A DNA stretch of 64,000 nt, from positions 6,464,501-6,528,500 of the forward strand of contig NC_019757.1 in NCBI RefSeq assembly GCF_000317535.1. Reading direction: 5' to 3'. Source of the stretch: Cylindrospermum stagnale PCC 7417. Lineage in GTDB: Bacteria > Cyanobacteriota > Cyanobacteriia > Cyanobacteriales > Nostocaceae. The position numbers and the translations under genes were made by a program. A model generated the notes under the pieces. That model did not search any database. It was not told the origin of the DNA and was given only the letters and a program-made list of their open reading frames with translations. Positions 40,018 to 61,075 of the stretch are shown one piece after another (within the stretch, counting starts at the first letter, position 1; each line of letters starts with the position of its first letter).

Positions 40018-41376
40018 TTGATGGATAATCAAGCGATGCATACAGGAAGTACTTCGTCTTACACAAAGGTTCAATTCCTCCAGCGCCAAGCAGCGTCACT
40101 CTTACTGTACCAATCTGTCCTCGAAAGCGAAGTAGGAAGTACATTCCTTGACCTATTACAAGCTATACGTTACACTAACGCCGATGCAAGGGGTTGCCTC
40201 CAAGCCTACGGCAGTTATTTTCAAGCTTTGGCTGCGAGAAATCAAAACTGGGAGGAATATTTAATTACTCAAATACTGATTTCTGACAATCCCTTTAGCC
40301 GGCTTGCTCAACAGCGAGAATTTACCAATTTGCCCCCAGCTTTAGTAGCAGCAGCACAGCATGATTTACAAGTATTGCAGAGTCTCTATGAATGTAGCAG
40401 TGCTTCTTTGAGCGAGTGGGTACAAGACGTAGCCTATCTACCCATTTCACCCGTAGTCTGGTATCAGGAACCAGAAGCGGTAGGAGTAGAGAAGGGATTA
40501 GTTGCATCTCTACAACAGTTGGAAAACTGGGCTGATGCTGTAGAAGATTTAGCAGCTTATTACCGCCAGTTTGGCACAGGTATATTTGCAGAATATTGCG
40601 CTTTACGCTGGCAATCTGGACATTTTATTGGTATTAAGTATCCCGATCCAGTCAAGCTAAATGTACTCGTAGGTTATGAATCTCAACAAGATGCTTTGTT
40701 AAAGAATACAGCATTTTTATTATCAGGGGAAGCAGCACTACATGTATTACTTTACGGTAGTCGCGGTTCTGGTAAGTCTTCTTTAGTCAAAGCTTTGTTA
40801 AATGAGTATAGCGATCAAAACCTACGCTTGATAGAAGTGGCAAAATCAGAATTGCAAGACTTACCAAAAATTGTCGAGCAGTTGCGGGGAGTACCCCAGA
40901 AATTTATCATTTTTGTCGATGACCTTTCCTTTGAAGCAGATGATGATGCTTTTAAATCACTCAAAGTAGTTTTAGAAGGTAATTTAACCGCACGACCGCA
41001 AAATGTAGTCATCTATGCCACTTCTAATCGCCGACATTTGATTCGGGAGTTTTTTGCCGATCGCCCTGCTCCCCAGAATAACGATGAAATCCATGCTTGG
41101 GATACAATGCAACAAAAGCTTTCTTTTAGCGATCGATTTGGTCTGACCTTAACATTTGAACCAGCAGATCAGAAAACTTATTTAAAAATTGTCCAGCATC
41201 TAGCAGCACAAGCAGACATTAATCTTACCCAAGAAGATTTAGAATATCAAGCTTTACAGTGGGCAACTCGCCATAATGGTCGTTCTGGTAGAACAGCACG
41301 GCAGTTTATTGATTACTTGAAAGCCGACTTAGTCCTGTTTGGTGCCAATAACAATATATCTGAAACCTCATCATGA
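40018..41376 (+). CDS. DUF815-family AAA+ ATPase
   Basis: The 452-residue protein has an all-helical N-terminal region of about 220 residues and a C-terminal AAA+ domain. Walker A is YGSRGSGKSSLVKALL near residues 242-257, Walker B is FIIFVDDLSFE, and sensor 1 is NVVIYATSNRRHLIREFF. This is the DUF815 pattern, predicted ATPases with no proven function. ATG at 40018. The TerB-C gene follows 98 bp later on the same strand. DUF815 genes are often stand-alone, so whether it belongs to the cassette after it is open. Confidence 0.9.
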   Translation: MMDNQAMHTGSTSSYTKVQFLQRQAASLLLYQSVLESEVGSTFLDLLQAIRYTNADARGCLQAYGSYFQALAARNQNWEEYLITQILISDNPFSRLAQQREFTNLPPALVAAAQHDLQVLQSLYECSSASLSEWVQDVAYLPISPVVWYQEPEAVGVEKGLVASLQQLENWADAVEDLAAYYRQFGTGIFAEYCALRWQSGHFIGIKYPDPVKLNVLVGYESQQDALLKNTAFLLSGEAALHVLLYGSRGSGKSSLVKALLNEYSDQNLRLIEVAKSELQDLPKIVEQLRGVPQKFIIFVDDLSFEADDDAFKSLKVVLEGNLTARPQNVVIYATSNRRHLIREFFADRPAPQNNDEIHAWDTMQQKLSFSDRFGLTLTFEPADQKTYLKIVQHLAAQADINLTQEDLEYQALQWATRHNGRSGRTARQFIDYLKADLVLFGANNNISETSS

Positions 41377-41474: not shown

Positions 41475-42815
41475 ATGGCCTTAAAGACTACTTATTCTGA
41501 CAACTTTACTACGCTAAAAACCAGTAATATGCAATCAGCAATAGTAAGTAATCGATTGATTCTCGGCATAGCTGCCTTTAGTGTGAGTTTTGGTTTGAGT
41601 CTCGTCCCCAACTGGGATTTTACTAAAGCCTTTCTCACAGGTATAATTACCGTATTAGCTACCTACGCAGCTGCATTATTTGTTGATAAGCGACGCAGAA
41701 ATTATGAAATGCTAGTTTTAGGCTCACTCAGCAAGCGAATTAAAGAGCTTGAGGGATTGAAATCTCGGATTTTTAGAGAAATTAACCAAATAGAACAGCA
41801 TAATAATTTATTATATGCTGAGTCAAAGCAACTGCAAAATCAAATAGCAGAATGTCGTAACCAAAGAGATAGCCTCCATCGCGAGTTAAGCAATTTTTCT
41901 GGACAAAAAAAGCAGTTTGACTCAGAAATTAACAGCCTAAAAACTGAAGTCAATAGCCTGGGAAAAAATAAAGCAGAACTGAGTAATTCTGTTTCTATCC
42001 TCACATCTGAAAAACGCCGATTAGAATTAAATTGTCATACATCTCGCTCGGAAATTACTCAGTTGCAAATGCAAATTGATGAACTCCAGCAGGAGAAACA
42101 AGAAGTCGAAAGCAATTTAACTCTGCTAGGCAGACTCAAACCCCAACTAGAGGAAAAACTTTATGAACTGCGAATTGAAATTCAAGATCTAGAAACCGAG
42201 ACAATTAAGCAAAACCAATTACTCACAGCTACAAAAGCTGAAAAAGAAAGTATAGAAACCACCCTAAATTTAATACATACTCAAATAGCGGGACAACAAG
42301 CTGAACTCAAGCAAATACAAGGGCAAGTTGGATTATTACAAGATGAACGCGACCTCTTACAAAGCCAGGTTTGGGAGTTACTCCAACAAATGGAAACACT
42401 CAATCCAGAAGAGTTACTTGACGCTGCACAGGAAGATAATATTGAGTTGTTTCCTTTCGCTGAATTACTTGAAACCTTAGAACCAATAAATACTCAAGTC
42501 GATACATCTAAAAATTTACCTGAAGAATGGACTAATTTTTTAGAAAACCTACCAGGCTATGAATTACAGATATTAAAAGCTATAGTCGAGCAAGAAAATC
42601 CTAAAGCTACCATTAAACAGATTGCCGAAGCAAATATCACAATGCCGAATCTATTAATTGATGGTATTAATGAACGAGCAAATAATACTATTGGCGAATT
42701 AATAATTGAGACAGGGGCGGAAATTCCAGAAGTTTATCAAGAGCATATAAACAACGTCAAAAAAATGATTGCAATGTATGATGACCTGATGGATAGATAT
42801 GCCACACCAAATTAA
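41475..42815 (+). CDS. Membrane-anchored coiled-coil protein with TerB-C-like domain
   Basis: The 446 residues begin with two membrane helices (about 27-44 and 49-70) and a basic stop (DKRRRN). A very long coiled coil follows (about 85-310, with repeated heptads such as SEITQLQMQIDELQQEKQEVE). The C-terminal 100 residues are globular: LPEEWTNFLENLPGYELQIL, QIAEANITMPNLLIDGINER, and ANNTIGELIIETGAEIPEVY. They match the TerB-C pattern found in tellurite-resistance-related multi-gene systems. The topology suggests a sensor or scaffold at the membrane. A DUF2791 ATPase and a helicase follow on the same strand. Confidence 0.8.
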   Translation: MALKTTYSDNFTTLKTSNMQSAIVSNRLILGIAAFSVSFGLSLVPNWDFTKAFLTGIITVLATYAAALFVDKRRRNYEMLVLGSLSKRIKELEGLKSRIFREINQIEQHNNLLYAESKQLQNQIAECRNQRDSLHRELSNFSGQKKQFDSEINSLKTEVNSLGKNKAELSNSVSILTSEKRRLELNCHTSRSEITQLQMQIDELQQEKQEVESNLTLLGRLKPQLEEKLYELRIEIQDLETETIKQNQLLTATKAEKESIETTLNLIHTQIAGQQAELKQIQGQVGLLQDERDLLQSQVWELLQQMETLNPEELLDAAQEDNIELFPFAELLETLEPINTQVDTSKNLPEEWTNFLENLPGYELQILKAIVEQENPKATIKQIAEANITMPNLLIDGINERANNTIGELIIETGAEIPEVYQEHINNVKKMIAMYDDLMDRYATPN

Positions 42816-42909
42816 ATTATACTGAGCCGCTGTCGGATAATTAGTCAGGGTAGATTCCTTACTTACTGGCTGCCTGGTTCGGCGTTAAAAATTAAGTGAA
42901 GTGAACTAC

Positions 42910-44238
42910 ATGGCAAAACTTAAAATCTCGAAAAAAGTCTCTACTGCTTTAATTAATTCCCTTGGTGCGGGAGTAGTCCCCAGAGTCGGAGTTGAACATA
43001 TAGCCGTAGGTCGTGAAAAAGAACTCCAAAGCTTATTACAAAATCTCAACGATATCGCCGAAGGTGTTGCGGCATTTCGTTTTATAATTGGCAACTACGG
43101 TTCCGGCAAAAGCTTCATGCTGCAAATGATTCGTAACCGTGCTATAGAGCAAGGTTTTGTAGTCACCGATACTGATTTATCCTCTGAGCGCCGTTTAGCA
43201 GGAACCAACAATGAAGGTTTAGCGACCTATAGAGAATTGATGAGTCGCCTCGCCACAAAAACTCGTCCTGATGGCGGTGCTTTAGTTTCAATTTTGGAAG
43301 GATGGATTAATAAAATCCAGCAAGAAGTGGCTAAAGATAGTGGAATGCGCCCCAATGATGAAGGTTTTGATAACCAAGTGGAAACAAAAATTAGGGAAGT
43401 AGTTCAGTATATTGAAGACTTAGTTCATGGATTTGATTTTGGCAGCATTGTTATCGCTTATTGGCGTGGCTACCGCTTGGATGATGATGAATTAAAAAAT
43501 GCGGCTCTGCGTTGGTTACGGGGAGAATTTAATACTAAAACTGAAGCAAAATCAGCTTTGGGTGTACGTGTGATTATTGATGATGATAGTTGGTATGATT
43601 ACATCAAATTATGGGCTAAGTTTGTGGCGGAAATTGGCTATAAAGGACTTTTAGTTTTAGTTGATGAAGCAGTAAATTTATATCAAATATCCACTACAGT
43701 AACTCGTGAGAAAAACTATAACAGACTTCTAACAATGTTCAACGACACCATGCAATGTAAAGCAGAAAATCTTGGCATTTTAATTGGTGGCACAACCAAG
43801 TTTTTAGAAGACCCAAATCGGGGACTTTTTGCCGACCAAGCTTGGCGCAGACGGACAAAAGAAAGCCGTTTTGTTGCCCAGGCTGGTGTCCAAGAATATT
43901 TAGGGCCAGTAATTCGTCTCAACCCATTAACCGAAACGGAAATCCTCACACTTTTGCAGCGCTTAACAGAAATTCATGCGCTCAATTTTGGGTATGAAAA
44001 GACTTTAACAAATCGTGAGTTAAAAGAATTTGTGCAAGAAATTATTAATCGCTTAGGTGCAGAAGCTTTACTGACGCCAGGAGAAATTATCCGAGATTTT
44101 ATTAGTGTGTTAAATGTTCTCTATCAAAACCCAGAAGTTAAGTTTACAGAATTAATTCACGGGTCTAATTTTAAAGCTACTGCTGCGGGTCAAGATGCTA
44201 ATTCAGGTGAAGATGACACAGCAGATTTTTGTCTGTGA
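42910..44238 (+). CDS. BREX-type ATP-binding protein (BrxD-like, DUF2791)
   Basis: The 442-residue P-loop ATPase (from ATG 42910; a GTG at 42901 is an alternative) matches the DUF2791/BrxD pattern. It starts KKVSTALINSLGAGVVPRVGVEHIAVGREKEL, then Walker A FIIGNYGSGKSFML. TDLSSERRL, a long helical insert and Walker-B-like LLVLVDEAVNLYQ follow, then IGGTTKFLEDPNRGLF and PLTETEILTLLQRL. BrxD occurs in type 2 and 6 BREX with BrxHI helicase. Here it sits between a TerB-C coiled-coil gene and a helicase, without PglX, PglZ or BrxC in the window, so it belongs to a related but distinct locus. Confidence 0.87.
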   Translation: MAKLKISKKVSTALINSLGAGVVPRVGVEHIAVGREKELQSLLQNLNDIAEGVAAFRFIIGNYGSGKSFMLQMIRNRAIEQGFVVTDTDLSSERRLAGTNNEGLATYRELMSRLATKTRPDGGALVSILEGWINKIQQEVAKDSGMRPNDEGFDNQVETKIREVVQYIEDLVHGFDFGSIVIAYWRGYRLDDDELKNAALRWLRGEFNTKTEAKSALGVRVIIDDDSWYDYIKLWAKFVAEIGYKGLLVLVDEAVNLYQISTTVTREKNYNRLLTMFNDTMQCKAENLGILIGGTTKFLEDPNRGLFADQAWRRRTKESRFVAQAGVQEYLGPVIRLNPLTETEILTLLQRLTEIHALNFGYEKTLTNRELKEFVQEIINRLGAEALLTPGEIIRDFISVLNVLYQNPEVKFTELIHGSNFKATAAGQDANSGEDDTADFCL

Positions 44239-44425
44239 TTAACAATTTTTTAGTCTAATATTTATTCTTTACTATAACCAGTCTAGTTCAATTTATTTTA
44301 TAACTTTGCTATTTGCTCTTATACCAACCTTGCTTAAGGTAACCATAAGCATGAGTCTCAGTGTTTTTTCTGGGATACTTCTTCGATACTCTGGGCAAAA
44401 CTGTAAGCTAAAATCAAAAATTTGT

Positions 44426-46591
44426 ATGAGCAATAGTACTTTTTCAAGACTCGCACCTTTCATTCAAGAATATATTTATCATCATGAGTGGACTGAATTA
44501 CGACCTGTACAAATCGCCGCTTGTGAAGTTATATTTGACACTAATGCTCATTTATTAGTTACCGCTGCCACCGCTGCGGGGAAAACGGAAGCGGCGTTTT
44601 TGCCAGTTTTAACTTTATTACACAAAAAACCTGCCACCACCATAGGCGTATTATATATTAGTCCAATTAAAGCTTTAATTAATGACCAATTTGAGCGCCT
44701 GAATAACTTGTTAAAAGCAGCAGATATCCCCGTTTATCACTGGCACGGCGATGTGGCTCAAAATCGAAAAAACAAGCTTTTGAAAAATCCCCAGGGTATT
44801 CTACAAATTACGCCAGAATCTCTGGAAAGTTTGTTAATTAACAAAAATAATGACCTAATTCGCTTATTTGGTGATTTACAGTTTATCATCATTGATGAAA
44901 TTCATGCCTTTATGGGTTCGGAACGCGGATGCCAAATAATTTGCCAATTACAGCGGTTAGCAAATTTGACGCAAAAACAACCTCGTCGTATTGGTTTATC
45001 TGCGACTCTCGGTGATTACTCAATGGCTGAAGATTGGTTGCGTTCTGGAACAGTTGAGCCAGTGATTACTCCAAAAATTGATGGGATAAAACGTCAAATT
45101 AAACTGGCTGTAGAACATTTTTATAATGAAGTTGATGAATCAGAGATAACAGTTTACGAACAATATATTTTTAATCTCACTAAATCTCGTAAATGCCTCA
45201 TTTTTGCAAATAATCGCACGCAAACTGAGTCTATAATTGCTTCTTTGCGCCAAATCGCGGACAAACAAGCACTCCCAGATATATATCACGTGCATCATGG
45301 CAGTATATCTGCTAGTTTGCGGCAAGCTGCGGAAGATGCGATGCGTGAACCTAACAATCTGGCTGTTACTGCTGCTACTCTGACTCTAGAATTAGGTATA
45401 GATATCGGTCATTTAGAGCGAGTTATTCAGTTAGAATCACCTCTGTCTGTAGCCAGTTTTCTACAACGTTTGGGACGTAGTGGGAGAAGAGGTGAAGCTG
45501 CGGATATGCGCTTTGTATGTGCTGAAGATAAACCATTATCAGAAGCGTCTTTACCGGAACAAATTCCCTGGCAACTTTTGCAGTGTATTGCTATTATCCA
45601 ACTTTATTTAGAGGAGCGTTGGCTGGAACCGATAAGGCCGATCAAATATCCTTTGAGTTTGCTTTATCACCAAACAATGAGCATTTTAGCTGCAACGGGG
45701 GAACTTTCGCCGACTGCTCTCGCTAAACAAGTTCTAAATCTACCACCATTTGCTGCTATTTCTCAAGCAGATTTCCTGCTATTGCTACGCTATTTAATTG
45801 ATATTAATCATATTGAAAAAACTGAAGAAGGTAAATTGATTATCGGGTTGTCAGGGGAAAAGGTGGTGAGCAAGTTTCAGTTTTATGCTGTGTTTGCTGA
45901 TAGCCAGGAATATGTTGTGAAGCAAGGTACAGTGGAAATTGGTAGTATTATTACGCCGCCTGTTGTTGGTAACCAATTTGCTTTGGCTGGCAGAAGTTGG
46001 GAAGTTTTAGAAGTTGACTTCAAAAAAAAGTCTGTTTCTGTGAAGCAAGTTGAGGGGAAGGCTAGTATTTATTGGCGTGGTGGTAGCGGCACTATCCACA
46101 CAAGGATTTTGCAACGGATGCGGCAGGTTTTACTTGAAGATACAGAGTATAGCTATTTGCAAAAAAATGCTCTACAACGTTTGCAGACGGTTCGTCAACT
46201 GGTGCGAAAGGCTGGATTAGATAAACAAAATATCCTGCTATTATCTAAGGGTAAATGTTGCATCTTTCCCTGGATGGGTACTGTTGCTTACCGCACTTTA
46301 GAAAGATTGCTCAATTGCTGCTGTCGGGAATCTTTAGAAATCATCAGCATTGGTGGTGCAAATCCATATTATTTGACCATAAAATTAGGTAAAGATAAGT
46401 TTCAATATCTTTACCCAGAAATTATTGCTTTATGTGAGCAAAGAATTACTCCTGAAGATTTAGTTAGTGATGCAGAAGCTCCAGAAATGCAAAAATATGA
46501 TAAATTTATTCCCCACGCACTTTTACGGAAAGCCTATGCTAGCGATTATTTAGATTTGGCAGAAATGAAACAACAAGTTGCTTTTTGGTAG
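44426..46591 (+). CDS. Lhr-like DEAD/DEAH-box helicase (BrxHI-type)
   Basis: From the ATG at 44426 (MSNSTFSRLAPFIQEYIY) the protein has 721 residues. It is a superfamily 2 helicase with Q-motif-like LRPVQIAACEVI, motif I TAATAAGKTEAAF, motif II DEIHAF, motif III SATLG, and in the second core AATLTLELGIDIG and QRLGRSGRRGE (motifs V and VI). A winged-helix and Lhr-core extension follow (RPIKYPLSLLYHQTMSIL; GSIITPPVVGNQFALAGRSWEV). Such Lhr-like helicases pair with BrxD ATPases. An in-frame start at 44306 adds 40 residues of non-conserved character. It probably forms one operon with the two genes before it. Confidence 0.9.
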   Translation: MSNSTFSRLAPFIQEYIYHHEWTELRPVQIAACEVIFDTNAHLLVTAATAAGKTEAAFLPVLTLLHKKPATTIGVLYISPIKALINDQFERLNNLLKAADIPVYHWHGDVAQNRKNKLLKNPQGILQITPESLESLLINKNNDLIRLFGDLQFIIIDEIHAFMGSERGCQIICQLQRLANLTQKQPRRIGLSATLGDYSMAEDWLRSGTVEPVITPKIDGIKRQIKLAVEHFYNEVDESEITVYEQYIFNLTKSRKCLIFANNRTQTESIIASLRQIADKQALPDIYHVHHGSISASLRQAAEDAMREPNNLAVTAATLTLELGIDIGHLERVIQLESPLSVASFLQRLGRSGRRGEAADMRFVCAEDKPLSEASLPEQIPWQLLQCIAIIQLYLEERWLEPIRPIKYPLSLLYHQTMSILAATGELSPTALAKQVLNLPPFAAISQADFLLLLRYLIDINHIEKTEEGKLIIGLSGEKVVSKFQFYAVFADSQEYVVKQGTVEIGSIITPPVVGNQFALAGRSWEVLEVDFKKKSVSVKQVEGKASIYWRGGSGTIHTRILQRMRQVLLEDTEYSYLQKNALQRLQTVRQLVRKAGLDKQNILLLSKGKCCIFPWMGTVAYRTLERLLNCCCRESLEIISIGGANPYYLTIKLGKDKFQYLYPEIIALCEQRITPEDLVSDAEAPEMQKYDKFIPHALLRKAYASDYLDLAEMKQQVAFW

Positions 46592-47226: not shown

Positions 47227-48657
47227 ATGTTAAATTTCAATCAGGGAATATATACAGAGAAAAAGGCTCTTGTGATTGGGGGAAGTATTGCTGGACTGCT
47301 AGCGGCTCAGGTACTGACCAAGCACTTTGACCATGTAACAATTGTAGAACGCGATCGCCTTTTTCAAGAACCAGAACAGCGCCAGGGTTTACCCCAAGCA
47401 CATCATTTGCACGTGCTACTTCTGCGGGGTAAGCAAATTCTGGAGCAGCTATTTCCTGGGATAGAGGCTGAATTAGCAGAGTCAGGTGCACCAGCTATGG
47501 ATTGGACAGCAGACGGTGCCTGGTTGGGTCTTAGCGGTTGGGCACCCCGTTTTCGTTCTGATTTGATTACCCACACCTGTAGCCGAAATCTGTTGGAGAG
47601 GACAATCCGCCGTCGCTTGGCTGCTAATAAGCGTGTTGCATTTGTCGAAGGAGGACAGGTTACTAGCTTACTGTCTAACGAAGATAAAACTAAGATGACG
47701 GGTGTGTGCGTGCGTGTGGACAAAGAAGTAGTAACAGAAATTTTTGCTGATTTAGTCGTAGATGCTAGTGGGCGAAATTCGCGATCGCCTCAATGGTTGC
47801 AAGCAATGGGCTATGAGCCGCCCCAGGAGACAATTATCAACTCTTTTTTGGGCTACGCTAGCCGCTGCTATGAACTGGCTGCTGAGAAGCAAGTTGACTG
47901 GAATAGTGTCTATGTAACAGTACAAGCACCAGGCACTCGTGGCAGTGCCATGTCTAAAATTGAAGGTAATCGCTGGATGGTGATCTTAATGGGTGTAGCT
48001 CGTGATTATCCACCAACTAACGAGGCTGAATTTCTCAACTTTGCCCGGAGTTTGCGATCGCCTATTATCTACGAAACCATCAAAGACGCCAAACCCCTTT
48101 CCCCTGTCTACGCCTATAAGCGCACAGAAAATTGTCTCCGTCATTATGAAAAGCTTTCTCGATTACCAGAAGGCTTGGCGGTATTAGGTGATGCCGTCTG
48201 TGCCTTTAATCCTGTCTATGGTCAAGGCATGACTACTGCTGCTTTAGGTGCTTTGACTCTGGATGAGTGTTTAAGCAAGCAACGATTTCAGCACCCAGAC
48301 GGTAATTTAATTGGTCTATCCCGACACTTTCAAAAACAACTCCACAAGGTAATTACTGTACCTTGGTTGATCACAACATGTGAAGATTTCCGTTGGTCTA
48401 CTACCGAAGGCGGAAAACCCAGTTTGATGACCAAAATTATGCAGCGATATCTGAAGCAAGTGCTGGTTCTGCAAGCCACGAGTCCTCAAATCCATCAGGT
48501 TTTCTTAGAAGTAATGCACATGATTAAGCCACCCAGCGCCTTATTCCACCCTAGTATTCTGATGCAGGTAGTCAAGCAGGTATTCAAATTCCAGCGCCCA
48601 GAGCGAGATTTTAGCAATAGACAAGGTTTTCCAAATCCGCTGTCTGTTGCTGAGTAA
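47227..48657 (+). CDS. FAD-dependent monooxygenase/oxidoreductase
   Basis: The 476-residue flavoprotein has an N-terminal Rossmann motif (KALVIGGSIAGLLAAQVL), the acidic strand end VTIVERDRL, and the second FAD motif GLAVLGDAVCAFNPVYGQGM near residues 318-337, characteristic of p-hydroxybenzoate-hydroxylase and geranylgeranyl-reductase-type enzymes. QGLPQAHHLHVLLLRG is a motif of a bacterial subgroup often met in natural-product clusters. There is no membrane segment. The substrate is unknown. It begins 635 bp after the helicase, so it is a separate unit. An IS982 copy has inserted about 200 bp downstream. Confidence 0.87.
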   Translation: MLNFNQGIYTEKKALVIGGSIAGLLAAQVLTKHFDHVTIVERDRLFQEPEQRQGLPQAHHLHVLLLRGKQILEQLFPGIEAELAESGAPAMDWTADGAWLGLSGWAPRFRSDLITHTCSRNLLERTIRRRLAANKRVAFVEGGQVTSLLSNEDKTKMTGVCVRVDKEVVTEIFADLVVDASGRNSRSPQWLQAMGYEPPQETIINSFLGYASRCYELAAEKQVDWNSVYVTVQAPGTRGSAMSKIEGNRWMVILMGVARDYPPTNEAEFLNFARSLRSPIIYETIKDAKPLSPVYAYKRTENCLRHYEKLSRLPEGLAVLGDAVCAFNPVYGQGMTTAALGALTLDECLSKQRFQHPDGNLIGLSRHFQKQLHKVITVPWLITTCEDFRWSTTEGGKPSLMTKIMQRYLKQVLVLQATSPQIHQVFLEVMHMIKPPSALFHPSILMQVVKQVFKFQRPERDFSNRQGFPNPLSVAE

Positions 48658-49003: not shown

Positions 49004-49876
49004 TTATTCAATAAAAGCTTGTTGCAGAGTGTAGGCAAAAATAAAAGCTTGGATTTTAAGTAAAAATCCTTGATATGTTACCGCATGAATCGATTTTGGA
49101 AAAAACCTTGTGATGCCGCTAAATACAGTTTCAATGTAATGACGAATAGACTGTTTAATGTATTGATTCCACGGTGCATCTTGGCGTTTAGAGTTCTTCT
49201 TTCGCATGACTTGTATCTCTATATGACTAGTTTTAACTAAGTCATCTTCAACAGTGTAATCAAGATAGGCAGAATCGGCGCGGCAGTCGCTTCAAGCCGG
49301 GGAACCCGTCCAACGCGCTGCCTTGTAAACTTGACTCCCAGGTAGTAAATTCAGCGGTAAAGCAGTTAATCCCCGTATATCTGTTGCACTAGCCGGCATG
49401 AACACAAATTCAACAGGAATACCAGTTTTGGTAGTTAATAACTGTACTCTTACTCCATAAAAATAGCGTTTCTTGGATGCGATATAACCTCGATATTCTT
49501 CTGATTGAATTAACTTCGCATTAAAGATGCGAATGTTATCACATATGGGTACAGGAAAGGAGTCTAAAAGATACTCTGTATTTTCACTAATTTGTTTTAG
49601 TGCTGTTCCCACTTGATGAAATAAATCGTTAATTAACATTGAGACATGATGTAATCGCCGATTAAATCGTGATTTTTCTAACATCTGCGGTATCAAGTTA
49701 TGGTCTTTCATATAGCTGCAAGCCCCACTATGATTACCACTGAAGAACATAGCCGCGATGATTGCCGTTGTGATAATTTCTGCATCACTCATTTCACGGC
49801 GCATATCTTCACGATGTCCAATCGTCTTTAATAGGTCATCCACGATAGCATAGATAGTAACTATTTCATTTAACAT
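49004..49876 (-). pseudogene. IS982-family transposase, disrupted
   Basis: The N-terminal 183 residues are intact: MLNEIVTIYAIVDDLLKTIG, IITTAIIAAMFFSGNHS, FNRRLHHVSMLINDLFHQ, LLDSFPVPICDNIRI, KRYFYGVRVQLLTTKTGIPVEFVF and LLPGSQVY. Fifteen foreign codons with a TGA follow, then the proper continuation ADSAYLDYTVEDDLVKTSHI and IETVFSGITRFFPKSIHAVT to the normal C-terminus. Removal of the 45 bp restores a 275-residue transposase of normal length in a single frame. The DDE residues lie in DSFP, ADSAYLDY and the IETVF region. Confidence 0.9.
49280..49324. repeat. 45 bp palindromic small dispersed repeat inside the transposase gene
   Basis: The plus strand starts GCGGCAGTCGCTTCAAGCCG and ends CCGTCCAACGCGCTGCCTT. 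The ends GGCAGTCGCTT and AACGCGCTGCC are near-inverted repeats (9 of 11). It is more GC-rich than the host gene and keeps the reading frame (45 = 15 codons), but includes an in-frame TGA. This fits the very small mobile repeats known from Nostoc genomes. Confidence 0.8.
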
Positions 49877-49999
49877 ATCTCCCTCCTAATTTTCTAGCTG
49901 GATGGATTTTCTTGTTTCTGTAGCCCTATGTCATCTCCCTTGGAGAGTAACTAGCAACTTGGGTTATATATTAACTTAGGGATGAGAACGGGGTGCAAA

Positions 50000-51139
50000 C
50001 TAATTGACTTCAGCATCTTCTTTTTCCCTGAGAATTCCTATACCAGCTTCTGTTTCAATGTAATCAGCTAAGTTAATAAAGTCCTCTCGCGGATGGCATC
50101 TTCCACCTATGAGATTAAATGCTAATTCACTGCGCGGATTGTCAGGGCTTTCGAGGATATGCATACCCCAATAATAAAGTTGATCACTGCTACGAATACA
50201 TACTTTCTGTGGATCTATACAATGAAATTTATTATCTGTTTTGCTAATTTGCTTATAAGCATCAAAAAAAGTCTTTTTAAGAAGCTCCATGCGTTTGGTA
50301 GCTTTAGGATCTTTAAAGTTGTTGACTAAGACAAACAGATGTGCACTGTTATTGATCCGACGTATCTTTTCAACAGTATCTTGGATTACTTTTCCATGCT
50401 TATTAATACCGAGTGGATTTAAAGTAGTTGGTATAATGCAGTAGTCGAATTGCTTAATTAGCTCTTTGGGATTTCTTTCTAGTGCAGGTGAGCAATCACA
50501 AATTACTATCTTACAATCACGGGCAGCATCCTCATGCCAGTCACTACCATCAAATACTTGGATAGTTGTGCCAACTCCTTTAGGATTGGGAACAAAAACA
50601 CCATCGCCTACTAGCTTTTGCAGATTTTGTTCCGGATCTAGATCCACAAGCGCTACATTAAACCCTTGGAGGGCAAATGCTCCCGCCAGATGGGCAGAAA
50701 CAGTTGTTTTCCCAACTCCACCTTTACAAGTAAAAACTCCAAAATAAATCTTTCCTTTCTTTGGTGGTTTAGGCGGGGGTAAATCTTCATTCTTACCTAA
50801 CCAAATAATCTTATTTTCAGATGCAACTCCACAATGTATTTGAGCATCTTGTCCCCAGGATTTTATTAGGGCGCGTGCTGGTCCACCATAACCTTGTGTT
50901 GTTACAAAAAAACCACAATTAAATTGTCTACCTTCATTCGTTTCTAAAAAATCAACAAATTTTGAAATTTGGGGTTTCTGAACATTAGCTTTTAGCCATT
51001 TCACCTGGACTACTCCAAGTATCTCGCCTTTTTTAACAACTAAATCATAACCAACTTGGTTTTGTTTAGGAGTTTCAACGCCCCAACCACCCCTATGAAA
51101 AATTCTGGCTACGTGCTGCTCGAATTCCCTAAAATCCAT
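50000..51139 (-). CDS. Mrr-like nuclease domain fused to a ParA-type ATPase
   Basis: From the ATG at 51139 (MDFREFEQHVARIF, GGAG 10-13 bases upstream) the protein has 379 residues; the frame also opens at 51229. Residues 1-115 form a restriction-endonuclease (Mrr_cat-like) domain: NQVGYDLVVKKGEILGVVQVKW, with Asp32 and Gln45-x-Lys47 as PD-(D/E)XK residues, then CGFFVTTQGYGGPARALI. A proline linker (PPPKPPKKGK) leads to a ParA/MinD ATPase (130-379) with deviant Walker A CKGGVGKTT (138-146), LVDLDPEQN and CDCSPAL. Both active sites look intact. No ParB or methylase is adjacent. A defence or mobile-element role is inference. Confidence 0.85.
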   Translation of the reverse strand: MDFREFEQHVARIFHRGGWGVETPKQNQVGYDLVVKKGEILGVVQVKWLKANVQKPQISKFVDFLETNEGRQFNCGFFVTTQGYGGPARALIKSWGQDAQIHCGVASENKIIWLGKNEDLPPPKPPKKGKIYFGVFTCKGGVGKTTVSAHLAGAFALQGFNVALVDLDPEQNLQKLVGDGVFVPNPKGVGTTIQVFDGSDWHEDAARDCKIVICDCSPALERNPKELIKQFDYCIIPTTLNPLGINKHGKVIQDTVEKIRRINNSAHLFVLVNNFKDPKATKRMELLKKTFFDAYKQISKTDNKFHCIDPQKVCIRSSDQLYYWGMHILESPDNPRSELAFNLIGGRCHPREDFINLADYIETEAGIGILREKEDAEVN

Positions 51140-51587
51140 GTACTGTGACTCCAAATACGACTGCATAAACAGCTTTAAGTTTTTTGGCTCAGAGTTATAT
51201 ATGAAATTTAGTATATTATATAACAGCAAATTTGTCTAAGATAGGTTAATCTTTATATGTAATTTCGACCACTGCTTAGAAAATATCAAAAGCTTGATGC
51301 CACCTAAAATCTCGGAGTCAATTCTCAGAAATTTGGCAGAATTGCATAGTAAACTTCTCGTAAATGTACTTCTTTTTGTGTTCTTATTTGCGTCTTGGCG
51401 CCTTGGCGCGAAACAAAAATTATTTATGGACAAAATATAGTAAATTTACGGTTAATGAAACCCAGTATAAATACGCTAAAATCTATAGTTCTCATGAAAC
51501 TTTCAAAAAGTTATGCGGTTCCTACAGGCAAACCGAGAAATTTTCGTTAAGCTATAAATCCGATCATTAAGAATTATTGAATGCCTT
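51140..51587. other. Divergent intergenic region with a dispersed repeat
   Basis: Apart from the possible N-terminal extension of the ParA fusion, no gene is supported. 51387-51414 is a TTGCGTCTTGGCGCCTTGGC motif, the reverse-complement class of the repeat at 7257 and related to the menI tail. The promoters for the divergent genes must lie here. Confidence 0.5.
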
Positions 51588-52418
51588 ATGCACAGTTTGT
51601 TATCTGGGCCGTTGAGTACACAGAGAGTAACGGTCAAGATTGCAGGATTGCCTGCATCATTACAAGGTAAAAAGCTGGTGCAGATGTCAGATTTTCACTA
51701 TGATGGTTTGCGGCTAACAGAAAAAATGTTAGAAAAGGCGATCGCAATTTGCAATCAAGCCAAACCAGATTTAGTTCTATTGACAGGCGACTACGTAACC
51801 ACAAGCCCAGCACCAATTCATCAACTAGTACTACGACTTAAAAAACTGCAAAGTCGCTGTGGTATCTATGCCATACTTGGCAACCACGATATATATTACA
51901 GACAATCAAAACCAGAAGTCACAGCAGCCCTGACTGGCATTGGAATTAACGTCTTGTGGAACGAAATCGCCTATCCATTAGGGCAAGAATTGCCACTGGT
52001 AGGACTTGCAGATAGTTACTCCAAGGAATTCAATCCCGCACTAGCCATGAACCAGCTAGACCCCGCCACACCCCGCATTGTTTTATCCCATAACCCAGAC
52101 ACTGCGGAGATATTGCAAGCATGGCGAGTAGATTTGCAATTATCTGGTCATACTCACGGTGGTCAAATCGTCATTCCTGGAATTGGCCCTGTAGGGCGTT
52201 ATTACAAAAAGATATTGCGAAACATCCCTCTGCAAATCCGGCGTCGAGTGTCATTCTTGCGAAAAGATTACTCTGTAATCGACCATTGGGAATGGGCACA
52301 GGGTTTACATCAGCTAGGAAAAAATCAGCTATATGTCAATCGGGGACTGGGAACTTATCTCCCAGGACGTTTATTTTGCCCGCCAGAAGTTACATTACAG
52401 CGTTTCCGGCTATTATGA
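51588..52418 (+). CDS. Calcineurin-like metallophosphoesterase, C-terminus cut by an insertion
   Basis: The 276-residue YkuE-like enzyme has the five metallophosphoesterase motifs: SDFHYDG, LLTGDYVT, LGNHDIYY, SHNPD and SGHTHGGQIVIPG. It binds two metals and hydrolyses phosphoesters; the substrate is unknown (some relatives act on lipid A precursors or lipids). There is no clear signal peptide. The last codons are CTA TTA TGA, and the TGA belongs to the inverted repeat of the IS630-type element. Without it, the gene would read on across the target for 12 more residues (TDASAVITLESD) and stop at 53432-53434. A paralog follows at 53561. Confidence 0.93.
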   Translation: MHSLLSGPLSTQRVTVKIAGLPASLQGKKLVQMSDFHYDGLRLTEKMLEKAIAICNQAKPDLVLLTGDYVTTSPAPIHQLVLRLKKLQSRCGIYAILGNHDIYYRQSKPEVTAALTGIGINVLWNEIAYPLGQELPLVGLADSYSKEFNPALAMNQLDPATPRIVLSHNPDTAEILQAWRVDLQLSGHTHGGQIVIPGIGPVGRYYKKILRNIPLQIRRRVSFLRKDYSVIDHWEWAQGLHQLGKNQLYVNRGLGTYLPGRLFCPPEVTLQRFRLL

Positions 52419-52913
52419 GGTACAGTAGCAGCAACTAGCAAACCAGTTTCTTAATTGTTGAGGATTTATTAAGTCGAGTGCAACTGAGATTAGTTTATCA
52501 ACCATTTCCGTTGTAGTTGGAGCGAAACGGCGTAGAAAAGATTTAAGTTGTGACCACCATAATTCAATTGGATTAAAATCGGGAGAGTATGAGGATAAAC
52601 AAATAACTTTCGCGCCTACAGCTTCAATCATTAGCACAATTGAATCTAGTTTATGTGCGGATAAATTATCCATGACTACTACTGCTCCTGACCATAAATT
52701 TGGCACTAAAAACTTCTCAACAAATAATTCAAATGCCCTGCCATCCATTGAATTATTCATTGTCATTAATGCAACTACTTTGTTAATACTAATTGCTCCA
52801 ATTACTGTAACTTTTGAACCTCTATAGAAGGGGTTAAGAGAGTAAGCTCTTGTTCCCATTTGTGAACGGGCATGAGTCCTCGTTAACCCAAGTAGAACGC
52901 CAGTTTCGTCCAA
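52413..52913 (-). CDS. IS630-family transposase, DDE part (orfB)
   Basis: The frame encodes the catalytic half. It is open upstream as TLRVLNLRLDYWEKVKHIEPENLVFLDETG, with the first catalytic Asp. VVVMDNLSAHK carries the second Asp and SPDFNPIELWWSQLK the Glu. An internal ATG gives 166 residues. The stop TAA is completed by the TA target bases at the element edge. It lies in the +1 frame relative to orfA, joined at an A8 run. Confidence 0.9.
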   Translation of the reverse strand: MDETGVLLGLTRTHARSQMGTRAYSLNPFYRGSKVTVIGAISINKVVALMTMNNSMDGRAFELFVEKFLVPNLWSGAVVVMDNLSAHKLDSIVLMIEAVGAKVICLSSYSPDFNPIELWWSQLKSFLRRFAPTTTEMVDKLISVALDLINPQQLRNWFASCCYCTS

Positions 52914-53393
52914 AAATACTAAATTTTCTGGCTCTATATGTTTGACCTTTTCCCAATAATCTAATCTTAAATTTAAGACTCTAAGAGTCCCGGCTTGGGT
53001 ACTCCGCTTTGTTTTTTTTACGATTTAATCCTAATTTCTGTAAGGCCCGACACATTGCACTTCGACCCACCCAATTACCAGTCTTGTCTGCCAAGAATTC
53101 ACATAACTCTATCAATGTTGCATCTGGATGTGCTTCAACTAATTCCCTTAACTCTACTTCCGCATTTGTTAAATGACTAAATTGTGGTTTCCCTCGCGGC
53201 TTTGGTTGTAAATTTCCTTCAAGTTTTTGTTGCTTTACAAGCTTTTGCACTAAACTCTTTGAGACGGAAAATATGTTAGCTACTTTCCTGATTGAGATGT
53301 TTTTTTGAAGATGTGCTGCAACTATTTTTTCTCGAAACTCGACAGAGTATGACTTCATTTAAAGGTATTTATATTTTAATTTAGTGTACCTCA
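52416..53393 (-). mobile_element. IS630-type element, 978 bp
   Basis: The ends are TGAGGTACA and TGTACCTCA inverted repeats flanked by TA (52414-52415 and 53394-53395), the typical IS630/Tc1 target. It carries two overlapping-phase transposase frames on the minus strand. It is inserted in the last codons of a metallophosphoesterase gene. Removing the element with one TA restores an uninterrupted reading frame across the junction. Confidence 0.9.
52981..53358 (-). CDS. IS630-family transposase, helix-turn-helix part (orfA)
   Basis: The 125-residue frame contains the DNA-binding N-terminus: MKSYSVEFREKIVAAHLQKN, ISIRKVANIFSVSKSLVQKL, and a second HTH (TLIELCEFLADKTGNWVGRSAMCRALQKLGLNRKK). At the A8 run (53012-53019 on the plus strand as T8) the frame diverges; a +1 shift continues as KTKRSTQAGTLRVLN into orfB. 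Similar two-frame transposases make a fused product by slippage, so the element may still be active. Confidence 0.9.
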   Translation of the reverse strand: MKSYSVEFREKIVAAHLQKNISIRKVANIFSVSKSLVQKLVKQQKLEGNLQPKPRGKPQFSHLTNAEVELRELVEAHPDATLIELCEFLADKTGNWVGRSAMCRALQKLGLNRKKNKAEYPSRDS

Positions 53394-53560
53394 TAACAGA
53401 CGCAAGTGCTGTAATTACCCTAGAAAGTGACTAGAATGTCGTCATAAATTAAACTAATTTATTAAATTAGATTCCATGACATAAAATATTGTATTCACTC
53501 AAGATACATTTTAATTTTTGATAAGCTGTAAACGCTAGTATGAGGAGCATTTTTTAAACT

Positions 53561-54394
53561 ATGCACTGGTTGTTTACAGGACACTTAAGAGTAGATAAAT
53601 TAACGGTTAAGATTGCAGATTTACCGGCATCTTTACAAGGAATAAAGTTGGTACAGTTGTCAGATTTTCACTACGATGGCTTGCGGCTATCGGAAAAAAT
53701 GTTAGAAAAGGCGATCGCACTTACTAACGAAGCTGAACCCGATTTAATTCTCTTAACTGGTGACTACGTAACCGACGATCCCACACCAATTCACCAACTG
53801 GTAATGCGACTCAAACATCTGCAAAGCTTCAGTGGAATCTATGCCGTACTTGGCAACCACGATATCCATTACAGCCACTCAAAAGCCGAAGTTACAGATG
53901 CGCTGACTAGCATTGGAGTCCATGTCCTGTGGAATGAAATCGCCTATCCACTAGGAGAAGAATTACCACTGGTAGGACTAGCTGATTATTGGTCACGGGA
54001 ATTCAACCCCGCACCAATTATGAACCAACTAGATCCCAGCACACCGCGCATTGTTCTATCCCACAACCCAGATACAGCCAAAATATTGCAAAAATGGCGA
54101 GTAGACTTGCAACTATCTGGTCATACCCACGGAGGTCACATTGTTATTCCAGGGTTTGGTCCCGCAGTGCTTTATTATAAAAAGCTGTTGAAACAAATTC
54201 CCAAAAAATTACGGCGTTGGGTGTCTTTGTTGTTAGGAGACTGCTCTAAAGTGGTGCGTTATTGGGAATGGGCGCAAGGGTTTCACAAAATTGAACAAAA
54301 TCAATTATATGTCAATCGCGGCTTAGGAACCTATCGCCCAGGACGCCTATTTTGCCCACCAGAAGTTACTGTAATTACCTTAATTAGTACTTAA
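53561..54394 (+). CDS. Calcineurin-like metallophosphoesterase (paralog)
   Basis: The 277-residue paralog of the gene at 51588 has the same motifs: SDFHYDG, LLTGDYVT, LGNHDIHY, SHNPDTAKILQKW and SGHTHGGHIVIPGFG, ending PPEVTVITLIST. The two proteins are close enough to indicate tandem duplication before the IS630-type insertion that now separates them. All metal ligands are present. The ATG at 53561 follows TGAGGAGCATT, a good ribosome site. Confidence 0.94.
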   Translation: MHWLFTGHLRVDKLTVKIADLPASLQGIKLVQLSDFHYDGLRLSEKMLEKAIALTNEAEPDLILLTGDYVTDDPTPIHQLVMRLKHLQSFSGIYAVLGNHDIHYSHSKAEVTDALTSIGVHVLWNEIAYPLGEELPLVGLADYWSREFNPAPIMNQLDPSTPRIVLSHNPDTAKILQKWRVDLQLSGHTHGGHIVIPGFGPAVLYYKKLLKQIPKKLRRWVSLLLGDCSKVVRYWEWAQGFHKIEQNQLYVNRGLGTYRPGRLFCPPEVTVITLIST

Positions 54395-58038: not shown

Positions 58039-58725
58039 ACTTTTTTGTCTGGTGCTGAAAGGAGAAACTGCTACTTGAGCGATAGATGTGGGTTATCGTT
58101 AGCGATCGCTATACCTCTAATCGTTAATTAACTGGACAAAGATGGACAATGAGTACATATTAGTTTATAGTTTCCCTATGGCTAAATATGTGAAACCTTG
58201 AGGATGCAGCTAACACTCTGAGAGTTTGTTTGCGAACCCTCAGACGATGGGAAGCAAAAGGTAAAATCAGCACCGTCAAAACGCCGTCAGGTCAAAGGCG
58301 ATACGACGTCGAAAGGTTTATTAAACAAGAGTCAGAACCAGATGGAAGACGCGCCACTGTTGTCTATGCTCGCGTCTCTACCAGACCACTTCATGCTGAC
58401 CTTGATAGACAAGTTGAACGATTATCAGCGCTCTAGAGCGGCGCTGAAGTCGTTAAGGAAGTGGGAGGAGGACTTAATCTGCGGAGGAAAGGACTCATCG
58501 CTCTTTTGGGACGAGTTCTGCGAGGTGATATCGGAGTTATTGTGGTTGCCCACAAAGACCGACTTGCAAGATTCGGATTTGACATTATCGAGTGGTTATG
58601 TGAACAGTTTGACTGCAAAATCGTGGTTCTCAACCAAATCAGCCTCTCTCCACACGCCGAACTCGTTCAAGATATCGTTGCAATTCTCCACAGCTTTTCA
58701 AGCCGACTTTACTCCATTAGAAGAC

Positions 58726-61075
<2,350 letters not shown>

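Follow-up and report, generated by a model that had tools for sequence, protein, structure and literature searches.

The stretch analysed here (the window) comprises 64,000 nucleotides of the chromosome of Cylindrospermum stagnale PCC 7417 (NC_019757.1, positions 6,464,501 to 6,528,500). Its minus strand carries a gene, on the 7.0-Mb contig of this 7.6-Mb genome, in which an Mrr-like nuclease domain (Mrr_cat) and a complete deviant-Walker ParA-type ATPase are joined in one protein; this architecture is beyond doubt, its mode of action is not. Residues are numbered from the Met at 51139, which gives a protein of 379 residues. The N-terminal head of the window copy scores 53.8 bits against the Mrr_cat profile (curated cut-off 21) and adopts a restriction endonuclease (REase) fold in the structure model, and both halves of the fusion are supported by models. 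A preliminary description of this DNA had proposed such a fusion, with both sites intact and a proline linker between the halves, and had left it to be checked whether the N-terminal half fits a nuclease fold. All of this is borne out: profiles, structure models and a conserved architecture agree, the model of the N-terminal half has the expected fold, D32-Q45-K47 and the full set of deviant Walker ParA motifs are present, and the halves are separated by a proline-rich segment with low scores in the predicted local distance difference test (pLDDT), whose sequence is little conserved among relatives.

Conservation was examined in 79 distinct members, consisting of a first set of 61 and 18 from a second bacterial family (f38), which was chosen because its genome G461 holds the fusion gene. 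The ParA motif residues K139, K144, D168 and D215 are kept in all 79. The nuclease triad could be scored in 77, with L076 (a stop cuts the head) and L056 (the D is shifted in the alignment) set aside; it is intact in 58 and broken in 19, and these losses occur with the open reading frames (ORFs) of the fusion intact. Q45 is lost in 10 members, D32 in 5 (to N or T) and K47 in 7 (to R), three members lacking two of these residues. The first set had given the impression that D32 (59/60) and K47 (61/61) are invariant and that only Q45 varies (H, C or A in 10), an impression overturned by the 18 f38 members, nine of which have a broken triad. The preliminary description had counted homologs without Asp32 or Lys47 against its nuclease reading; such homologs exist (D32 replaced in 5/77, K47 in 7/77), but most members keep both residues. 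A catalytic nuclease as what the fusion is generally for is not supported, at least one triad residue being gone in 19/77. Parsimony on a tree of the ParA half places seven changes between the intact and broken states (three for D32, two for Q45 and three for K47 when scored singly).

A PD-(D/E)XK enzyme usually loses its activity once the motif D or K is replaced. The median ratio of nonsynonymous to synonymous substitution rates (dN/dS) of the head is 0.129 among 29 triad-broken pairs versus 0.145 among 305 intact pairs, which indicates that the head is under purifying selection where this is testable. Because heads with a broken triad still match Mrr_cat and their dN/dS is not raised, several lineages appear to retain the head for some role besides cutting; cutting by the window copy is still possible. 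A coupled loss of E7 and Q45 was considered (raw rows give p 0.0003 in the Fisher test) but is not claimed, as the tree holds only two Q45 changes and independent pairs give no support. Three f38 genomes carry two diverged fusion copies (L230 and L245 in G709, L231 and L246 in G713, L232 and L244 in G710); in each, one copy is K47R and the other keeps K47, together with D32N in G713.

By fold, the matches of the head include RPB5 chains as well as MspJI, AspBHI and NucS; the latter three are cutting enzymes, and RPB5 has the REase fold without cutting. Mrr_cat is matched by 41/41 heads of one set, 13 of which also match NA-iREase1 in Pfam (both at E 0.01 or better), and by 18/18 f38 heads (E 0.01), including nine without D32 or K47. 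The fusion thus resembles the Mrr-like PD-(D/E)XK nucleases (Mrr_cat PF04471; LlaBIII, MspJI and AspBHI by fold) in its profile match and, in the window copy, its D-Q-K residues, but differs in that its head is N-terminal, tied to ParA and without one or more triad residues in 19/77. It resembles the non-cutting REase folds in matching the fold of RPB5 and, for the 13 heads above, NA-iREase1; these two are inactive throughout, whereas the triad varies within the single family of the fusion. In its fold the ParA half comes near ParF and Soj, and it is better conserved than the head (82% versus 59% in L049, for example). Unlike the partition and orphan ParAs ParF, Soj and PpfA, the fusion has an REase-fold head at its N-terminus, and it scores only 61 bits against the NCBIfam ParA_partition model (NF041546), below the curated cut-off of 180. 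According to PMC9178275, the N-terminal position in type Ia ParAs is occupied by a helix-turn-helix domain.

The fusion is matched in 33 of 192 sampled genomes of the host's family, 23 of 243 genomes of an order sample that overlaps the family sample, and 11 of 386 genomes of a phylum sample (profile search), the host's own genome being counted each time; in f38 the count is 17 of 42 genomes, four of which match twice, in one case with a broken copy. A contig scan, which reaches close relatives only, found 10 full-length relatives, all cyanobacterial, among 11 loci; named close relatives with the fusion belong to Nostoc, Dendronalium, Anabaena and Scytonema, and L044 is the only non-cyanobacterial centre. 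In the genomes sampled, the ParA half and the head go as a pair: with the ParA half alone as query against 148 genomes, all 14 matches at E 1e-15 lie inside fusion ORFs, and of eight matches to the head profile in 80 genomes, six are fusion ORFs and the other two are weak. In none of 51 matched plasmid records and none of 88 matched phage records does a single place span 80% of the fusion protein; among the matches listed, these are partial and on the ParA side only. Likewise, the head is encoded in none of 80 viral-contig loci, a sample made up of the best 80 of 233 confirmed among at least 600 stretches. On trees judged by eye, members of one genus mostly group together, which suggests that inheritance is mainly vertical.

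Table 1. Features of the fusion gene and its surroundings (positions are those of the window; residues refer to the 379-residue protein).
Feature	Positions	Strand	Residues	Remarks
Mrr_cat-ParA fusion gene	50000-51166	minus		388 residues if the upstream ATG at 51166 is used
REase-fold head, N-terminal, Mrr_cat	50858-51139	minus	1-94	D32 51044-51046; Q45 51005-51007; K47 50999-51001
Proline-rich flexible linker	50750-50791	minus	about 117-130	pLDDT <50 at 117-128
ParA/MinD-type ATPase half	50024-50749	minus	131-372	
ParA motifs, window copy	50702-50725; 50636-50638; 50495-50497	minus		deviant Walker A; D168; D215
Decayed IS982 transposase	49004-49876	minus		two frames, 49292-49876 and 49004-49207; beyond the 3' end of the fusion gene
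FAD-binding protein	47227-48657	plus		flank on the other side of the fusion site
Metallophosphoesterase	51588-52418	plus		divergent; conserved upstream flank of the fusion site
Tandem metallophosphoesterase gene pair	51588-54394			IS630-type insertion between the copies
Shango-like operon	41475-46591			SngA 41475-42812 (weaker, 53.6 bits); SngB 42910-44235; SngC 44351-46588
DUF815 AAA ATPase gene	40021-41376			directly before the Shango-like genes
TnpB-type RNA-guided nuclease gene	58342-59934			NCBIfam guided_TnpB, 164 bits

The preliminary description placed the gene in a mobile-element zone beside an IS982 insertion. The insertion does adjoin the 3' end of the gene, but it is a decayed latecomer and only a neighbour: because its transposase is split in two frames and the sequence at its end (49900-49967) has two further copies elsewhere in the genome, it can be read as having arrived later, and G053 and G041 have the identical gene order at the site with no IS982 match. 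The mobile-element zone is thus not supported as a meaningful context for the gene, which is resident and lost by deletion. Six regions from gene-less genomes were compared, of which L208, L210, L211 and L213 show the site and L209 and L212 fell short; both flanks are kept in G028, G087 and G106, and one in G120. With L082 as the reference for measuring remnants, L210 (G087) retains pieces of about 35 nt (5' end) and 43 nt (3' end), some 1.1 kb of the fusion being gone; 95 nt of the 5' end are left in L213 (G120), where the FAD gene is gone too; and the entire gene is gone, with different end points, in L211 (G106). These three genomes all belong to genus g53, in which at least two deletions of the gene took place, and probably a third. 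In G028, which shares the genus of the window, the gene is cleanly absent and has left no remnants. This pattern is in keeping with a resident gene that is non-essential and frequently lost. Cargo of a mobile element was rejected as the main context, given the occupied sites without IS982 in relatives, the remnants at two empty sites and the lack of a near-full plasmid or phage match.

The divergent metallophosphoesterase is the immediate upstream neighbour in 20/48 loci, all in the Nostoc-like set, and is the only recurrent immediate neighbour in the 48. Since it stays at sites where the fusion is gone, we take it as a landmark rather than a partner; a shared divergent promoter is possible. 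In the window this gene is duplicated in tandem, and the IS630-type insertion between the copies has its transposase in two frames. A Pfam run on the 89 nearest neighbours of 100-700 residues from 47 loci (the 18 f38 loci lie outside this set) yielded, among the matches listed (25 of 57 families), mainly metabolic enzymes, with 19 Metallophos and 6 Uma2; the latter, a 'putative restriction endonuclease' family, is widespread in cyanobacteria. ParB is absent from these 25 of 57 families, no ParB profile having been run. To judge by these neighbours, the fusion is a solitary gene for which no ParB-like partner recurs. In family f18, the same two co-directional flanks are present in five related loci, where an acyl-CoA dehydrogenase precedes the fusion and another gene follows it, and in 9 of the 18 f38 loci a gene beside a putative ABC-type ATPase gene (by sequence) adjoins the fusion or lies one gene off, in convergent orientation. 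A search for upstream palindromes and common operator-like words gave nothing convincing (palindromes in 11/48 loci; the best 12-mer in 7/48).

ParA ATPases move or space cargo, and REase domains cut or read DNA. A protein of conserved architecture whose halves stay together without a recurrent partner, and whose catalytic residues are repeatedly lost with the ParA motifs intact, may be more a reader or holder of DNA than a cutter. We tentatively propose, at somewhat less than an even chance, that the fusion is a self-contained, chromosomal, single-gene ATP-gated DNA-binding switch with an REase-fold reader head, for which cutting is optional. The ParA half would bind ATP, dimerise as a sandwich and grip DNA, as ParA proteins do, and dimerisation would pair two flexibly linked heads. 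The paired heads could then read some feature of the DNA, be it ends, modification, structure or foreign origin; copies with the full D-Q-K, such as that of the window, may also cut, heads of other lineages would bind without cutting, and ATP hydrolysis would reset the switch.

Several points weigh against this proposal. We infer dimerisation, DNA binding, the feature read and the outcome, the first two by extension from other ParA proteins. In the 61-member set, D32 and K47 rank with the best-conserved residues of the head, which speaks for a role of cutting in most of the lineages concerned. The ParA-half tree was a quick one with many weak forks, and its seven state changes need not equal seven losses. 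Of the 29 broken-triad pairs, 28 join members without Q45 and a single one concerns D32/K47, so that selection on members that lost D32 or K47 is hardly probed. Moreover, the f38 genome G711 has the fusion only in fragments, with ParA and head matches on separate contigs. A stable ParA-REase family with fixed ATPase motifs and a variable cutting site offers a natural series on non-cutting nuclease folds and allows one to ask whether ParA dimerisation gates another domain on DNA. We found no published description of the fusion in the open literature, a coverage that excludes most subscription journals and all preprints, nor is it described in the available parts of PMC3710099, PMC7159879, PMC10241942, PMC9178275, PMC10853773, PMC5512222 and PMC3482391.

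One relative carries a third domain. In G244, a chain of 554 residues (L077, 8801-10465, minus strand) has the order Mrr_cat-ParA-HEPN_Swt1, with an E-value of 1.1e-36 for the HEPN domain and an RNKWAH stretch that fits the HEPN motif Rx4-6H. Among 11 genomes of the family of G244 the triple chain occurs in G244 only; a related HEPN segment in G262 lies in a 1142-residue frame without the remaining domains. According to PMC3710099, Swt1-like HEPN domains are tied to restriction operons, and a separate dyad of HEPN and ParA/Soj genes (MAE_18760) is interpreted as toxin and antitoxin. Like the fusion, these dyads combine a ParA-like ATPase and a nuclease domain; they are, however, made up of two separate genes, with a HEPN RNase and without an Mrr head, and the single HEPN relative of the fusion has its domain in the same chain and from a HEPN family other than that of the dyad (PMC3710099). 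The HEPN relative lends some weight to a role in conflict or defence. That the fusion represents a so far undescribed class of ATP-gated DNA surveillance switches, in which ParA dimers would present two readers that cut or signal by lineage and at least one member would add a HEPN RNA-targeting effector, is doubtful but worth stating.

The strongest rival explanation is an active anti-invader restriction nuclease, in which ParA dimerisation would trigger double-strand cleavage of DNA from phages or plasmids and the triad-less lineages would be decaying or have become regulators; we hold it to be rather unlikely. It would account for the intact triad in the window copy and 58/77 scorable members and for the near-invariance of D32 and K47 in the first set; the HEPN_Swt1 relative points the same way, its family being tied to restriction operons (PMC3710099), and the deletion scars within g53 fit a costly accessory gene. 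Speaking against it are the repeated loss of catalytic residues in intact ORFs and nearest neighbours that are mainly metabolic or non-defence where Pfam names them. PADLOC-DB 2.0.0 contains no protein-wide match, the best being a short Walker-A match to PDC-M28B (E 1.1e-5, residues 132-170 only), and the head gives two weak matches (PDC-S02, E 0.023; HEase, E 0.029). The Shango-like operon lies 3.4 kb from the fusion in the window, and such genes occur within 10 kb in 10/48 loci, in two orientations. This linkage is only suggestive and constitutes weak evidence, because SngB is present in 165/192 genomes of the family and lies hundreds of kb or more from the fusion in G059, G179, G033, G115, G018, G066 and G050; for the same reasons its value as proof of defence is weakened. 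A role in defence, which the preliminary description had raised as anti-plasmid or anti-phage action, is no more than possible; if it were confirmed, this would be defence by a single gene that PADLOC-DB 2.0.0 does not match in full. Two further observations concern the Shango-like genes themselves: the frequency of SngB is unusual for a defence system, and homologs of the preceding DUF815 gene are found in 9/48 loci, near SngA.

An orphan positioning ATPase, whose ParA half spreads chromosome copies or other cargo and whose head serves as an adaptor to DNA or cargo, is a less probable explanation still. The closeness of the ParA half to ParF and Soj and its higher conservation agree with it, and there are known orphan ParAs that lack a ParB (PMC9178275; PMC10241942). 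The gene is patchy and repeatedly lost, unlike a core segregation factor, and retention of the triad in most members would be left unexplained. We regard as very improbable a factor for DNA rearrangement or excision control, like the XisH proteins that resemble the head in fold, as the likeness is one of shared fold only (11% identity) and no recombinase is among the 25 of 57 Pfam families listed for the 89 nearest neighbours. A faulty assembly, which the preliminary description had named as a possibility, or a chance read-through from one gene into another is of negligible probability and was ruled out, the identical full-length fusion recurring in many sampled genomes under purifying selection. 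As a minor observation on the window, its TnpB-type gene also matches Cas12f profiles in PADLOC.
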